IMG/VR virus record: IMGVR_UViG_3300035698_004019
Span: 1 to 23,898 of that record
DNA from: a virus
Length of the DNA stretch: 23,898 nucleotides
Direction: 5' to 3' (one strand)
The notes under the pieces were generated by a model, which was given only the letters and a program-made list of their open reading frames with translations, was not told the origin of the DNA and searched no databases. Shown here in pieces: positions 1,359 to 22,202 of the stretch. Within the stretch, counting starts at the first letter, position 1. Each line of letters begins with the position of its first letter. A program made the translations under genes and the position numbers.

Positions 1359-1370
1359 AATAAGTTTATA

Positions 1371-1591
1371 GGGTGAGTTGAGAATGTGTGGCGGAATAGG
1401 TAACCGCTTAGGCTAGTCCGACTTGTGAGGAGGTATGGGGGTGCTATTAGGCTAGAAATCAACCCCCTTCGCAAACCCTACCCACATATTATAAGGTGAC
1501 TATACTAGTATTGGGCGATAGAACGCCTCTAAAATATATCAGACCCTTTATAGGGAACTAGGCAAATCCTTATCGCATTCTCAACCCACCC
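1371..1591 (+). ncRNA. Large structured RNA candidate closed by an 18-base-pair-long helix
   Basis: The arms 1371-1388 and 1574-1591 pair at 17 of 18 positions (one A-C mismatch at 1376/1586, one G-U at 1387/1575) and enclose about 185 bases. Directly inside, 1491-1496 (ATAAGG) pairs with 1568-1573 (CCTTAT) and could stack on the closing helix. Further hairpins are 1390-1394/1404-1408 (GGCGG/CCGCT), 1437-1442/1462-1467 (GGGGGT/ACCCCC), 1514-1517/1524-1527 (GGCG/CGCC) and 1544-1547/1552-1555 (CCCT/AGGG). A 9-base direct repeat TTAGGCTAG occurs at 1408-1416 and 1447-1455, and CTAGTCC (1413-1419) could pair with 1554-1561. G/C content is clearly higher than in the flanks. The SD of the next gene starts 11 bases after the closing helix, so it could be a leader element or a separate ncRNA. 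I recognise no known RNA family. Confidence 0.6.
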
Positions 1592-1601
1592 CGTAAACAA
1601 A

Positions 1602-1613: not shown

Positions 1614-1754
1614 ATGTTTACAAAAACAGGTGCATCAATAGTTTGGTTTATTTGTTTCTGTTTATTAACAGAATTTGTAGTTAATATCATTATTATTTGG
1701 GACAAAATCATTGTCCTTTGTAAAATCATTTGGAATATATTTTTTGGAGGATAA
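1614..1754 (+). CDS. 46-aa hydrophobic membrane microprotein
   Basis: ATG 1614 with a perfect SD (AAGGAGG) 5 bases upstream; stop TAA 1752-1754. The product is mostly hydrophobic: one segment from about residue 8 to 28 (ASIVWFICFCLLTEFVVNII) and a second from about residue 31 to 44 (KIIVLCKIIWNIFF), ending in Gly-Gly. It is very likely an integral membrane peptide. The SD of the next gene (GGAGG, 1746-1750) lies inside its last codons and the two genes are separated by one base, so they are almost certainly translationally coupled. It directly follows the structured region 1371-1591. The function is unknown; small phage membrane peptides can be holins, superinfection-exclusion factors or toxins, but nothing here selects among these. 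Confidence 0.65.
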   Translation: MFTKTGASIVWFICFCLLTEFVVNIIIIWDKIIVLCKIIWNIFFGG

Positions 1755-1755
1755 T

Positions 1756-1899
1756 ATGGAAAAATACTTTTATGTATTACTACTATGTCCTAGATGTGGA
1801 AGCACTTCAAATCACATGGTAATAATGAACACACAAGGTGTAATTATGGTAATGTGTGAGAAATGTTTTTTAGTTTATAACTGGGGAAGTGCATTATGA
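1756..1899 (+). CDS. 47-aa zinc-ribbon microprotein
   Basis: I choose ATG 1756 because GGAGG (1746-1750) is 5 bases upstream; a longer frame reaching back to 1711 would overlap the preceding gene with no ribosome site. The product has two CxxC knuckles: C11-P-R-C14 and C34-E-K-C37, spaced 19 residues apart, the classical layout of a single zinc ribbon. Between them is an HMVIMNTQGVIMVM beta-strand-like stretch. Coupled to the membrane microprotein before it. Small zinc ribbons in phages often bind nucleic acid or transcription or translation machinery; that is inference. A tandem pair of hairpins ending in a terminator follows (1910-1975). Confidence 0.7.
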   Translation: MEKYFYVLLLCPRCGSTSNHMVIMNTQGVIMVMCEKCFLVYNWGSAL

Positions 1900-1947: not shown

Positions 1948-1976
1948 AAAGGATAGTGTAAAAGCTATCCTTTTTT
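1948..1976 (+). terminator. Rho-independent terminator
   Basis: AAAGGATAG (1948-1956) pairs with CTATCCTTT (1965-1973) across an 8-base loop, followed by TTTTTT (1971-1976) and an A/T-rich stretch. It ends the accessory transcript and separates it from the chaperonin promoter 10 bases downstream. Confidence 0.8.
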
Positions 1977-2023: not shown

Positions 2024-3703
2024 ATGAATAAAAACACAAAAACACTCTTAGGGGTAGAAGCTAGAAAAAAAATAATTTCTGGCGTTAATAAAGTTTATGA
2101 ACCAGTAGCTAAAACACTTGGACCAAAAGGAAAAAATGCTTTAATTCCAAGAACAATGAATCGAGGACCAAGAAACACAAATGACGGTGTTTCAATTTCT
2201 GAAAATATTATATTAAAAAATCCACATGAAAGATTAGTGGCTGATTTCTTTAAAGAAGGAGCTTTAAAAAATAAACAAGTAGTCGGAGATGGAACAACAT
2301 CAACCACAGTAATAGGTGGTCATCTTATAAATACTATCCTTAAAAAGTTATCCAATGATGATTCCCCAGAACTAGGAAAATCAAAAACAGACAATGATGT
2401 AATGGAAACTAGAAGAAAACTTAAAGAAGCTAAAAAACAAGTAATTGAAGAAATAGATAAAAGAAAAAAAGAGGTTAAGACTTTAGAAGAATTAAAGAAA
2501 ATTGCTTTTATATCAGTAGAAGACAAAGAACTAGCTAATGTAATAGCTGAAATGGTTTGGAAGTTAGGAGTAGATAACTATATTGATGTAGTAGAGGGTT
2601 ACAAAGGAGAAATAGAAACAGATACAACTTCTGACATGAGATTCCCTGCTAGAGTAGGAGCAAGAGCTTTCATTAACAAACCAGAAATCTATTCAATGGT
2701 AGCAGAAGAATGTCCTATTTTATTGACTAACTATAAATTAGATAACCCAACATTAGTAGCACAGGTTATAAATACTAATCTACAAATCAAGAGTAAAGTA
2801 GTTGTAATGGCTACAAGTTTCTCTGATAGTGTATTGATAATGTTTCATAAAGCGATTCAAAATGGATTGTTTGTTTATCCAGTTAAAGTGCCTTCACTTA
2901 AAACAGATGAATTTGAAGATTTAGCAGTATATACAGGAGCAAGATTTGTCAACAAAGACACAGGAGGTAAATTAGAAAATACATCTCCAACTGATTTAGG
3001 ATATGCTGATAAAATAATTGTAAAAGATACAGACAATAGAGATTATGCTTCTCTAATTGGAGGAAAAGGCGAAAAGATTAAAAGAGGTAAAGGAAATGTT
3101 GTTACAGAAAGATGTGAAATGCTTAAAAAACAAATAACAGAAGCTAAAAACAACCTATCCAAAGAAATACTAAAGAGAAGAATAGCTAACATGGCTTCAT
3201 CAGCAGGAGTGATAAGAGTTGGAGCATCAACTGATGCAGAGATTCTATATTTAAAACTAAAAATAGAAAATGGAGTAAATTCTTGTAAAGCTTCTTTAAA
3301 GGGTGGATATGTAAAAGGTGGAGGACTTTGCTTAAAAGAAATAGCAGAAGAACTACCAGAAAACATCTTAACTGAAACTCTAAAAGAACCATATAATCAA
3401 ATTCAGAAAAATGCAGGAGGAACACTTAAAATAGATAAGAATGTAATTGACCCAGCAGAAGTAGTTAAACTTACAGTAGAACACGGAGTATCAATCGCAC
3501 AACAACTTATAACAACAGATATAATCACAGCCGAAGTAGAAGAAATGACAGATGCAGAAGGAAATATGAATATTGCAAAAGCATTAGGAACTTTAACTTA
3601 CTTCTGGGCTAAAGAAAGAGGAATGATGAAAGAAAGCGATCAAGAAATGGAACTAGACCAAGCAAAAGCTTTTGAAGAAGCTATGTTTAAAGATATTGAT
3701 TAA
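2024..3703 (+). CDS. groEL-like: Phage-encoded GroEL-like chaperonin, divergent, catalytic Asp replaced by Asn
   Basis: 559 aa against about 548 for E. coli GroEL. Equatorial-domain motifs are visible: TLGPKGKN (31-38), NDGVSIS (D54, equivalent to Asp52), VGDGTTST (87-94; D89 equivalent to Asp87), YVKGGG (429-434) and NVIDPAEV near the C-terminus (equivalent to the adenine-contacting Asp495 loop). Intermediate and apical regions follow the GroEL order. An ungapped alignment of residues 397-434 with E. coli places N416 (in KIENGV) at the catalytic Asp398 (RVEDAL). The C-terminal GGM tail is missing; the protein ends acidic. No GroES gene is visible, so it may use a host co-chaperonin or none. 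It has its own extended -10 promoter and is followed by the packaging genes, so folding of virion proteins is the likely job. Confidence 0.93.
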   Translation: MNKNTKTLLGVEARKKIISGVNKVYEPVAKTLGPKGKNALIPRTMNRGPRNTNDGVSISENIILKNPHERLVADFFKEGALKNKQVVGDGTTSTTVIGGHLINTILKKLSNDDSPELGKSKTDNDVMETRRKLKEAKKQVIEEIDKRKKEVKTLEELKKIAFISVEDKELANVIAEMVWKLGVDNYIDVVEGYKGEIETDTTSDMRFPARVGARAFINKPEIYSMVAEECPILLTNYKLDNPTLVAQVINTNLQIKSKVVVMATSFSDSVLIMFHKAIQNGLFVYPVKVPSLKTDEFEDLAVYTGARFVNKDTGGKLENTSPTDLGYADKIIVKDTDNRDYASLIGGKGEKIKRGKGNVVTERCEMLKKQITEAKNNLSKEILKRRIANMASSAGVIRVGASTDAEILYLKLKIENGVNSCKASLKGGYVKGGGLCLKEIAEELPENILTETLKEPYNQIQKNAGGTLKIDKNVIDPAEVVKLTVEHGVSIAQQLITTDIITAEVEEMTDAEGNMNIAKALGTLTYFWAKERGMMKESDQEMELDQAKAFEEAMFKDID

Positions 3704-3719
3704 AATATGGTATAATATA
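3699..3719 (+). promoter_or_regulatory. Extended -10 promoter (copy 1 of a 21-base repeat)
   Basis: TGGTATAAT with TATAAT at 3711-3716, just after the chaperonin stop and 31 bases before ATG 3748. All 21 bases of this stretch recur unchanged at 5890-5910 before the portal gene. A second TATAAT at 3730-3735 lies closer to the start but lacks the TGn element. Confidence 0.65.
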
Positions 3720-3747
3720 TATATATTATTATAATCCAAATAAAATT

Positions 3748-4002
3748 ATGTCAGGAATAAAAAGATTAACACAAAGTTTAATAGCAAAAAGTAAGAATCT
3801 ATTATCAGATAAAATAATTTATAAAAAAGATAAAGGGAAACTTGCAAAAGAAATATCACAAGCAAGAAAGAGTGGAGCAACTAAACTTTATAGAGATAAG
3901 ATTAAAGAGGGTTATGCTTCACTAGGAAAATCTGCACCAAAGAGAGTAGATAAAAGAAAACAACAATCTAAACCAAGTAGTGGTATAGGAGTAGGATTTT
4001 AA
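3748..4002 (+). CDS. Small basic protein of unknown function, 84 aa
   Basis: ATG 3748, A/T leader, no SD. The product is strongly basic (many Lys and Arg, especially in the second half, APKRVDKRKQQSKPS), predicted helical in the first 60 residues and with a flexible Ser/Gly-rich end (SSGIGVGF). There is no membrane segment and no Cys. It stops 5 bases before the small terminase gene, so it belongs to the packaging operon. A nucleic-acid-binding role is plausible from charge and position but I recognise no family. Confidence 0.65.
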   Translation: MSGIKRLTQSLIAKSKNLLSDKIIYKKDKGKLAKEISQARKSGATKLYRDKIKEGYASLGKSAPKRVDKRKQQSKPSSGIGVGF

Positions 4003-4007
4003 ATATT

Positions 4008-4388
4008 ATGGCTACACAGAAACAAATGAAACTAATAAAACTAATCATTGAAAACCTTGGTAGTAAGAAATCTACTAAGTCAATGGGGGAGTTAATGTTA
4101 GAAGTTGGTTATTCACAAGCACAAAGCAAAAATCCACACGAAATATTTTATTCAAAAGCAGTCCAAGAAGGAATAGGAGATTTTGTTAAATCATTAGATG
4201 ATAAAAGAAGAATGGCTTTGACAAAGATAACAGAAGCAAAGTTAGAAACATCATCAGCTAGAGAACTAGCAGGTATAATGGACACTCTAAACAAAGCACA
4301 CGAACTCCTTTCAGGTAAACCAACAGAGATAACAAAATATACTTTAAGTAAGGCAGAACAAGAGAAAATAGATAATTTATTAGAGTAA
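4008..4388 (+). CDS. terS: Terminase small subunit (TerS)
   Basis: 126 aa. The N-terminal half reads like a DNA-binding helix-turn-helix of small terminases: KLIIENLGSKK, then MGELMLEVGYSQAQSKNP, the 'GYS-x-A-x(3)-NP' turn seen in Terminase_2-type proteins. A helical central part (KSLDDKRRMALTKITEAKLETSS) would form the oligomer core and the C-terminus (SKAEQEKIDNLLE) would contact the large subunit. Its stop and the start of the large terminase gene overlap by one base (TAATG), typical of a coupled TerS-TerL pair. ATG 4008 without an SD, 5 bases after the previous stop. Confidence 0.8.
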   Translation: MATQKQMKLIKLIIENLGSKKSTKSMGELMLEVGYSQAQSKNPHEIFYSKAVQEGIGDFVKSLDDKRRMALTKITEAKLETSSARELAGIMDTLNKAHELLSGKPTEITKYTLSKAEQEKIDNLLE

Positions 4389-8700: not shown

Positions 8701-8806
8701 ATATAAAAATACTTGCTGGGTATGGCAATTTTGAGCGGCTTGATTGAGTTGTAAATGATACCCCGTTTACGACTCGTTCATACCGCTTAAAGCGGTATTT
8801 TTATAT
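8701..8806 (+). ncRNA. Structured leader with alternative terminator and antiterminator folds
   Basis: Two mutually exclusive structures are visible. Fold 1 is a terminator: ATACCGCT (8780-8787) / AGCGGTAT (8791-8798) plus T-run. In fold 2 the 5' strand ATATAAAAATAC (8701-8712) pairs perfectly with GTATTTTTATAT (8795-8806), trapping the terminator's 3' arm and T-run; GCT (8715-8717) with AGC (8791-8793) extends it, and GGTATG (8719-8724) pairs with CATACC (8779-8784). In both folds the central hairpin GAGTTGTAAATG (8746-8757) / CGTTTACGACTC (8764-8775) remains, 12 pairs including two G-U. It precedes the scaffold, decoration and capsid genes, so an attenuator or riboswitch-like control of head genes is a reasonable inference. 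Confidence 0.6.
8780..8802 (+). terminator. Rho-independent terminator within the structured leader
   Basis: 8-base perfect stem (8780-8787 with 8791-8798), 3-base loop, then TTTTT (8798-8802). It would end transcripts from the portal promoter or give partial read-through into the scaffold gene. Confidence 0.7.
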
Positions 8807-8813
8807 ATATACG

Positions 8814-10228: not shown

Positions 10229-10774
10229 GTGATAAATTCAACTAAAAGAGTCCCTTGGAATAAAGGATTAAAAATAAAAGACACCCATCCACAAATGGGT
10301 TTCAAGAAAGGAAATAAATTGTGGGATAATCCAAAATCTACTGTAAAACAGTTTCCTAAAGGAAAAAGTTTTTCTGAAGATACTCAATTCAAAAAAGGTG
10401 ATACTTCATTAAGAAAAGGTGTTGTATTACCAGACGAAATGAAAGGAGAAAATCATCATTGGTGGATTAAAGACAGAAGTAAGTTGAAAAAGAGTGAGAA
10501 AAAGCATTTATGCACTCGATACCGTCAGTGGATGTTTGCAGTTAAAAATAGAGACAACTGGAAATGTAAAATCACAGATGAAAATTGTAGTGGTCGAATA
10601 GAAGCACATCACATTCTTAATTGGGTAGATTACCCTGAATTACGATATAATGTTAATAATGGTATCACACTATGCCAAGCCCATCATCCAAGAAGTAGGG
10701 CTAAAGAGAAACGGCTAATTTCTAAATTTAAGGAATTAGTGTCAGTATCAAGTGTCTTAATTTGCAAAATATAG
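10229..10774 (+). CDS. HNH homing endonuclease with NUMOD3-like N-terminus
   Basis: 181 aa, starting at GTG 10229 (no ATG is available; in-frame stops lie upstream). The N-terminal ~65 residues carry repeated 'P-x-N-K-G' and 'F-K-K-G' motifs (VPWNKGLK, MGFKKGNK, TQFKKGDT), as in NUMOD3-type DNA-binding arms. The nuclease core is C-terminal: CKITDENCSGRIEAHHIL (H127, H128), NVNNGITLC (N143/N144) and AHHPRSR (H152/H153), giving the His-Asn-His ribbon-beta-beta-alpha-metal fold. Free-standing HNH enzymes of this type spread by cutting phage DNA lacking the insert. It sits between the decoration and capsid genes and its last 13 bases overlap the capsid frame, suggesting it inserted at the capsid gene start. 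Confidence 0.88.
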   Translation: MINSTKRVPWNKGLKIKDTHPQMGFKKGNKLWDNPKSTVKQFPKGKSFSEDTQFKKGDTSLRKGVVLPDEMKGENHHWWIKDRSKLKKSEKKHLCTRYRQWMFAVKNRDNWKCKITDENCSGRIEAHHILNWVDYPELRYNVNNGITLCQAHHPRSRAKEKRLISKFKELVSVSSVLICKI

Positions 10775-22145: not shown

Positions 22146-22202
22146 CAAAAGTGCAACACTTGATTAAGAAGCATTGCACTTTTGCTACCAGCTCTTAATC
22201 AA
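22146..22202 (+). ncRNA. H-type pseudoknot candidate / overlapping inverted repeats
   Basis: Stem 1: CAAAAGTGCAA (22146-22156) with TTGCACTTTTG (22174-22184), 11 perfect pairs. Stem 2: TTGATTAAGA (22160-22169), which lies in the loop of stem 1, with TCTTAATCAA (22193-22202) downstream, 10 perfect pairs. The arms interleave (1-2-1'-2'), so they form either an H-type pseudoknot with connecting loops of 3, 4 and 8 bases, or two mutually exclusive hairpins. On the - strand, stem 1 is followed by TTTTGTTTTAT and could act as a terminator. It sits 86 bases before the promoter of the next + strand gene. Confidence 0.6.

Follow-up and report, generated by a model that had tools for sequence, protein, structure and literature searches.

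A conserved structured RNA of bacterial viruses whose core very probably corresponds to the tRNA elbow

The DNA analysed here, a stretch of 23,898 nucleotides from IMG/VR virus record IMGVR_UViG_3300035698_004019 (hereafter, the window), carries at positions 1364–1598 an element that is almost certainly a conserved structured RNA and whose core can be equated with the elbow of tRNA with high confidence. Its family is large, widespread in bacterial viruses and apparently unnamed. Our favoured interpretation, held with moderate confidence, is that the element is a phage-encoded tRNA-mimic non-coding RNA, probably a stable molecule presenting its elbow in trans. A preliminary description had proposed either a new phage non-coding RNA or a large cis-regulatory leader; the claim of a structured RNA stood, the evidence favours the non-coding RNA of these two, and the tRNA-mimic character had been missed. 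The parts of the element and of its transcription unit are as follows.

1364–1598, plus strand: whole element, 235 nt, putative tRNA-like non-coding RNA with insert (class B); fold z score, covariance model R1 and covariation in 52 homologues
1364–1388, plus strand: P1 5′ strand, extended acceptor-like closing helix; covariation in 52 sequences
1389–1390, plus strand: UG, two-base linker corresponding to tRNA U8 and R9; conserved in the members
1391–1407, plus strand: P2, a tRNA-Leu-type D-arm, GCGG-AAUAGGUAA-CCGC, with G18 and G19 in the loop; alignment A5, columns 20–36
1408–1490, plus strand: V1, variable domain in place of the anticodon arm and variable loop; P3 helix, possible pseudoknot
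1491–1496, plus strand: T-stem 5′ strand, ATAAGG; 99.4% of cells paired, 5 of 6 pairs changed on both sides
1497–1504, plus strand: U54, then the conserved insert GACUAUA; invariant in A5 and used in selection
1505–1508, plus strand: P4 5′ strand, CUAG (usually CGAG); 98.6% paired, 4 of 4 pairs changed on both sides
1509–1557, plus strand: V2, variable domain within the T-loop; alignment A5
1558–1561, plus strand: P4 3′ strand, CUAG (usually CUCG); covariation
1562–1567, plus strand: 3′ part of the T-loop, GCAAAU, positions 55–60; A57, A58, A59 and U60 in 64/64 members
1568–1573, plus strand: T-stem 3′ strand, CCUUAU, with C61 first; covariation
1574–1598, plus strand: P1 3′ strand, contiguous with the T-stem; helix score and covariation
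1614–1754, plus strand: microprotein 1, 46 aa, hydrophobic, with Shine-Dalgarno sequence (SD) AAGGAGG; ORF and SD inspection
1756–1899, plus strand: microprotein 2, 47 aa, zinc-ribbon-like (CPRCG...CxKC), with SD GGAGG; sub-cutoff zinc-ribbon matches only
1948–1973, plus strand: predicted intrinsic terminator closing the unit of RNA and microproteins

The closing helix had been given as 17 of 18 pairs between 1371–1388 and 1574–1591, which is exact, and it reaches further outward, to 1364–1388/1574–1598, where the 25 columns hold 21 Watson-Crick pairs, two G-U pairs and two A.C oppositions. It was the top-scoring long-span helix of the window (score 45, against 40 for the runner-up) and had rightly been called unlikely by chance, its score being reached anywhere in 0 of 300 locally dinucleotide-shuffled windows. 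The fold of 1364–1598 was calculated at −79.9 kcal/mol (z −3.8). The minus strand folds as well as the plus strand (z −4.25), and the interior, 1389–1573, showed no excess of stability over shuffles on either strand (z +0.3 and −0.2), so that strand and interior had to be assigned via homologues; by itself, the window sequence lends significance to the inverted repeat only. Among the local hairpins described earlier, the first one (1391–1407) is genuine, and neither the true T-stem (1491–1496/1568–1573) nor P4 (1505–1508/1558–1561) appears in the minimum-energy fold. The lack of an ORF within the element was borne out, none of 40 aa or more being present on the plus strand. Two features formerly pointed out, the direct repeat TTAGGCTAG and the CTAGTCC string shared with the flank of the terminator, are not conserved across the family in alignment A5 and look incidental. 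Strong SDs are indeed restricted to 1614 (AAGGAGG) and 1756 (GGAGG), the other checked starts having 2–5 matching bases without the core GGAGG. Microprotein 1 had no match among protein families, and the region 5′ of the element yielded no scored promoter. Just 5′ of the RNA, positions 1160–1355 hold an ORF of 51 aa that contains a NUMOD3 motif and is followed out of frame by a DUF2283-like tail (KRIVDVDKEGNVIGIEFIEVL); the whole looks like a decayed homing endonuclease.

Sequence searches did not lead to the family: blastn found no direct homologues in phages and plasmids, nhmmer and microprotein tblastn against groEL loci returned nothing, the closing-helix sequence as a query had no match, and an 18-base exact pattern gave a single chance match in coding DNA. 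This is expected, because P1 is hypervariable. The window also encodes a phage GroEL (2024–3703) with close relatives (41–56% identity) in at least 15 IMG/VR phages, and groEL phages form a sizeable family. Fifty-seven phage GroEL loci were fetched and scanned for long closing helices, and the first homologue was found in L018, a phage contig of 42.8 kb; its GroEL and that of the window are 47% identical. There, an element of 231 nt (minus strand, 4034–3804) has a 25-bp closing helix of unrelated sequence, within which the TGG.GGAATAGGTA hairpin and the GTGACTATAC motif of the window recur; this comparison fixed the strand and showed that the closing helix is conserved as structure, not as sequence. 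The L018 element lies in about 800 nt without long ORFs (3430–4220), flanked on both sides by long-stem elements, a region rich in non-coding RNA.

From the window and L018 we built the pattern GGAATNGGTA-N58-88-GTGACTATA, in which GGAATNGGTA is the D-arm pattern used for member selection, and scanned IMG/VR with it. At least 80 stretches were retrieved, and about 67 of the 80 listed were true members, the rest being chance matches. Full members consist of P1, U8-G9, the D-arm, V1, the T-stem 5′ strand, GACUAUA, P4 enclosing V2, [G/U]CAAAU, the T-stem 3′ strand and, without a linker, the P1 3′ strand. Covariance model R1 located the window copy, one of its 52 training sequences, at 1372–1590 with 102.1 bits (E 1.5e-21); class B members scored 87–128 bits, against a tRNA-Leu background of about 29–34 bits. 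The family is biased towards phages: bacterial genomes seldom gave strong matches (4 contigs from a scan of 84,980 species), and 150 sampled bacterial genomes yielded one match, the seed itself. No match to the window RNA was found in the closest terL relative, L003/L004, and groEL-adjacent structured stretches in L020, L066 and L014 were rejected as members by the covariance model (L066:4876–4991 scored 24.9 bits, under the tRNA-Leu background). In an Rfam search of the window, 8 loci and 10 cultured phages, a comparison that the preliminary description had proposed, the RNA matched no family at gathering score, which is consistent with a new RNA; a literature search covering part of the journals found no description of the family.

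The fold was evaluated on alignment A5, comprising 52 members and 31 scored pairs. Standard pairs filled 88.5% of cells, against 63.7% in shuffled alignments and 39–47% in slid controls, and the covariation score was 0.657 against 0.183 for shuffled alignments; on each measure, none of 500 shuffles came up to the observed value. In P1, both partners vary in each of the 17 aligned pairs, and all four Watson-Crick types occur at the inner ones; the compensating changes in the closing helix across related phages, which the preliminary description had named as the support to look for with a covariance model, are thus decisively present. P1 and P4 played no part in the selection of members, and the T-stem was partly involved (5 of its 6 pairs were required). 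Without guidance, RNAalifold recovered the same fold, with 27 of 29 pairs covarying. In most members a helix, P3, closes V1 and ends 2 nt 5′ of the T-stem (score 11.3 observed and 7.2 shuffled, 74 sequences), and a pseudoknot in V1 is weakly supported (Fisher p 0.007, 74 sequences). Four otherwise diverged class B RNAs (L070, L105, L108 and L116) have a near-identical V2 (AACAAAUUGAUAGC...GGCUGGCGC.CCAU), the pattern that exchange of V2 as a module would leave.

Numbered as in tRNA, the core comprises U8, G9, A14, A15, G18, G19, A21, U54, C56, A57, A58 and U60, each present, like the G53-C61 pair, in 63–64 of the 64 members. The bases that mark a tRNA elbow (U8, A14, R15, G18, G19, A21, G53, U54, C56, R57, A58 and C61) are all found. 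Those within GGAATAGGTA and GTGACTATA served in selection; U8, R9 and C56 did not, and they are conserved all the same (U8, G9 and C56 in 63/64 each). Position 55 is U in 38 members and G in 24, the latter departing from the canonical U55. Like its tRNA counterpart, the T-stem abuts P1 without a linker, but it consists of 6 pairs. An anticodon stem-loop (5 bp and 7 nt) is absent, its place being taken by V1, which varies in length and sequence, and neither ARAGORN nor Rfam RF00005 recognised the RNA as a tRNA. With tRNA-Leu the RNA shares a nearly identical D-arm, the D-stem being of the G10-C25 type with the G13.A22 mismatch, and a two-base linker between acceptor and D-arm; it differs in the missing anticodon arm and CCA, the 6-bp T-stem and the frequent G at position 55.

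Searches of cultured phages with the D-arm and T-arm consensus returned 161 and 202 records, respectively; the D-arm matches included some tRNA-Leu genes, and nearly all listed matches were otherwise unannotated. Eleven cultured-phage copies were read in detail and represent a class A, with a plain T-loop UGCAAAU without insert and, in 8 of the 11, a P1 of exactly 7 contiguous acceptor pairs; in class B, to which the window copy belongs, P1 extends up to about 32 bp and the T-loop carries the insert. Model R1 detected the class A copies with E values from 1e-12 to 1e-6, and the class B motif had no match in cultured phages. Class A occurs in cultured phages of Gram-positive hosts, often adjoining tRNAs or upstream of terminase genes, and the family is unannotated there, including in Bacillus phage SBSphiJ7 (host BEST7003) and Lactobacillus phage LP65. 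Copies were located between an ArpU-like regulator and terS (Brochothrix phage BtpYZU01 and Lactobacillus phage JNU_P10), between ArpU and tRNA-Arg (VEsP-1), inside tRNA arrays (Lenus and LP65) and directly 3′ of the phage tmRNA (EFDG1). In L162 and L159, further odd tRNA-like sequences follow 3′ of the class A RNA, with a T-arm and acceptor and without a normal middle; phage tRNA arrays may contain several unrecognised tRNA-like RNAs.

Listeria phage P100 (L170, 41394–41554, minus strand) has an RNA that resembles class A but is diverged, its T-loop reading UGAAAAU and its D-loop being degenerate. It is conserved within the tRNA cluster in 46 Listeria phage records, at about 28.8–29.4 kb in sister phages, and scores weakly with R1 (22.2 bits). 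A 2025 article (PMC12282133) describes very abundant unannotated RNAs near the tRNA genes of another Listeria phage, CKA15, and its authors suggest that these may be Y RNAs. The present family may account for some such RNAs near phage tRNA clusters, CKA15 being a tentative example, because a coordinate range published there (26,236–26,727) does not coincide with the P100-like copy.

Whether the RNA acts by itself or as the leader of the next gene was judged from its genomic context. A cis-acting leader, in which a tRNA-like fold in the 5′ UTR controls transcription or translation of the following gene, here the two SD-bearing microproteins, would suit the window copy, which lies in the leader of their operon and ends 4 nt 5′ of AAGGAGG. 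An SD with ATG within 30 nt of P1 accompanies 15 of 64 class B copies, that of the window included, the next gene is co-directional in 44 of 61 scored copies, and the several cultured-phage copies between ArpU-like late regulators and terminase genes also fit; regulation of translation by a tRNA-like fold in a leader is reported for the yjdF riboswitch (PMC9142559). The genes downstream of class B, however, have no common function, encoding HNH, TerS/TerL, head protease, portal, Erf/RecT, SSB and lysozyme, so the consistent neighbour expected of a leader is missing, and a conserved alternative pairing with the SD was not seen. Such diversity would be less expected of a regulator dedicated to one gene than of an RNA carried along in a range of transcription units. 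As, in addition, L096 and L152 have an intrinsic terminator directly 3′ of the RNA, the copy in L018 is not directly followed by an ORF and other copies sit within tRNA arrays, a non-coding RNA is favoured, its action in trans appears probable on the strength of this context, and we regard the leader as rather unlikely.

Among known RNAs, the nearest kind are Y RNAs of the YrlA type, tRNA mimics tethering the Ro60/Rsr protein, which are likewise non-coding, combine D- and T-arm features with a long stem of paired ends and occur in phages. Bacterial Y RNAs, those in phages included, were reportedly recognised as tRNA mimics with D- and T-arm features by Chen et al. in 2014. To our knowledge, the T-loop insert and the conserved GACUAUA are not features of YrlA. 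The CKA15 article mentioned above (PMC12282133) also describes Y RNAs as tRNA mimics occurring in phages, and its suggestion for the abundant RNAs would agree with such an identity. As, however, Rfam YrlA (RF02553) does not match the RNA, its lone sub-threshold match (28.4 bits) lying elsewhere in L158, and TROVE/Ro60 (PF05731) was absent from 49 records with members or relatives, the window record being possibly incomplete and a control genome positive, we did not file the RNA under Y RNAs and consider that identity very unlikely. Still less probable is a packaging RNA serving the terminase motor like phi29 pRNA, with which the element shares a long closing helix constrained in pairing and not in sequence, as well as packaging genes nearby in some phages: several copies stand just before terS or at genome ends, and that of the window lies 2.4 kb upstream of a putative terS. 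Other copies, however, have genes for recombination, SSB, lysis or tRNAs as neighbours, conservation falls on the bases of the tRNA elbow, no core is shared with the described pRNA, and the carriers have both terS and terL. A decayed tRNA-Leu gene or MITE-like mobile element without RNA function would explain the tRNA-Leu-type D-arm, the folding of both strands and the 25-bp terminal inverted repeats; it is refuted by the covariation across 52 sequences, and with no second terminal-repeat copy in the window, no common terminal sequence among members and one strong copy per genome, it has a negligible probability.

The resemblance to tmRNA (RF00023) lies in a tRNA-like domain and a large domain in place of the anticodon arm, whereas the D-arm of the present RNA is a real stem; ARAGORN and the Rfam tmRNA models were negative, matching only the separate tmRNA of EFDG1, and no tag ORF was seen. 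Group I introns, retrons, tmRNA and MITEs were dropped for want of Rfam support and in view of the covariation, and no reverse transcriptase was present among the scanned window proteins. The stable RNAs species 1 and 2 of phage T4 (rnaC and rnaD) are similarly unexplained and encoded in a phage tRNA cluster; they were rejected as relatives, as the family motifs are absent and R1 finds nothing in T4.

In the proposed model of a tRNA-mimic non-coding RNA, P1 would stand for the acceptor stem and U8-G9 would lead into the class-II (tRNA-Leu-type) D-arm, whose G18-G19 would dock on C56-A57-A58 of the T-loop, forming the elbow, with the T-stem stacked on P1 without a linker. With V1 in place of the anticodon arm, such an RNA could not decode. 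In class B, the T-loop would be opened between positions 54 and 55 by the insert of GACUAUA, helix P4 and the variable V2. We infer that the RNA is discrete and expressed, in the window by release from the leader of the short operon with the two SD-bearing microproteins, and that it acts in trans on an elbow-binding partner: as a stable RNA it would expose its elbow to those factors of host or phage that recognise tRNAs at the elbow, and it would serve either as a scaffold or as a decoy that engages, for instance, tRNA-cleaving defences or enzymes handling tRNAs. The decoy role specifically is tentative. Similarly speculative is the wider suggestion that these are new, widespread viral tRNA mimics, reduced to the elbow, which capture a host tRNA-binding factor, for example by decoying tRNA-targeting antiphage nucleases, and whose T-loop insert and V1 are tuned to different targets. 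A decoy would tie in with phage tRNAs that help to evade tRNA-cleaving immunity, as described in another report (PMC11555353). A new phage non-coding RNA of this kind would follow a clear structural logic, in that the elbow of a tRNA is kept and the anticodon is not, and would enlarge the small set of known tRNA mimics; the family is easily recognised once seen.

Several minor observations concern the surroundings of the RNAs. In the 5′ flanks of several class B copies (for example L116, L125, L136 and L018), strings similar to GTTCTTTGAA, which recall the boxA antitermination signal, occur in the P1 5′ strand. The window has a second intergenic structured element at 8701–8813, made up of two hairpins, one small and one long, and a closing helix of 13 bp, and its fold (z −6.4) is stronger than that of the tRNA-mimic element; a long hairpin of other sequence is found at the same place, about 6.3–7.1 kb after the groEL start, in most groEL-phage relatives examined. 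A free-standing HNH endonuclease (10229–10774) is situated between a putative decoration protein and a putative major capsid protein, and a near-perfect 18-bp hairpin (AAAAGTGCAA...TTGCACTTTT) lies at 22147–22190, near the right-hand end of a 400-nt non-coding stretch.
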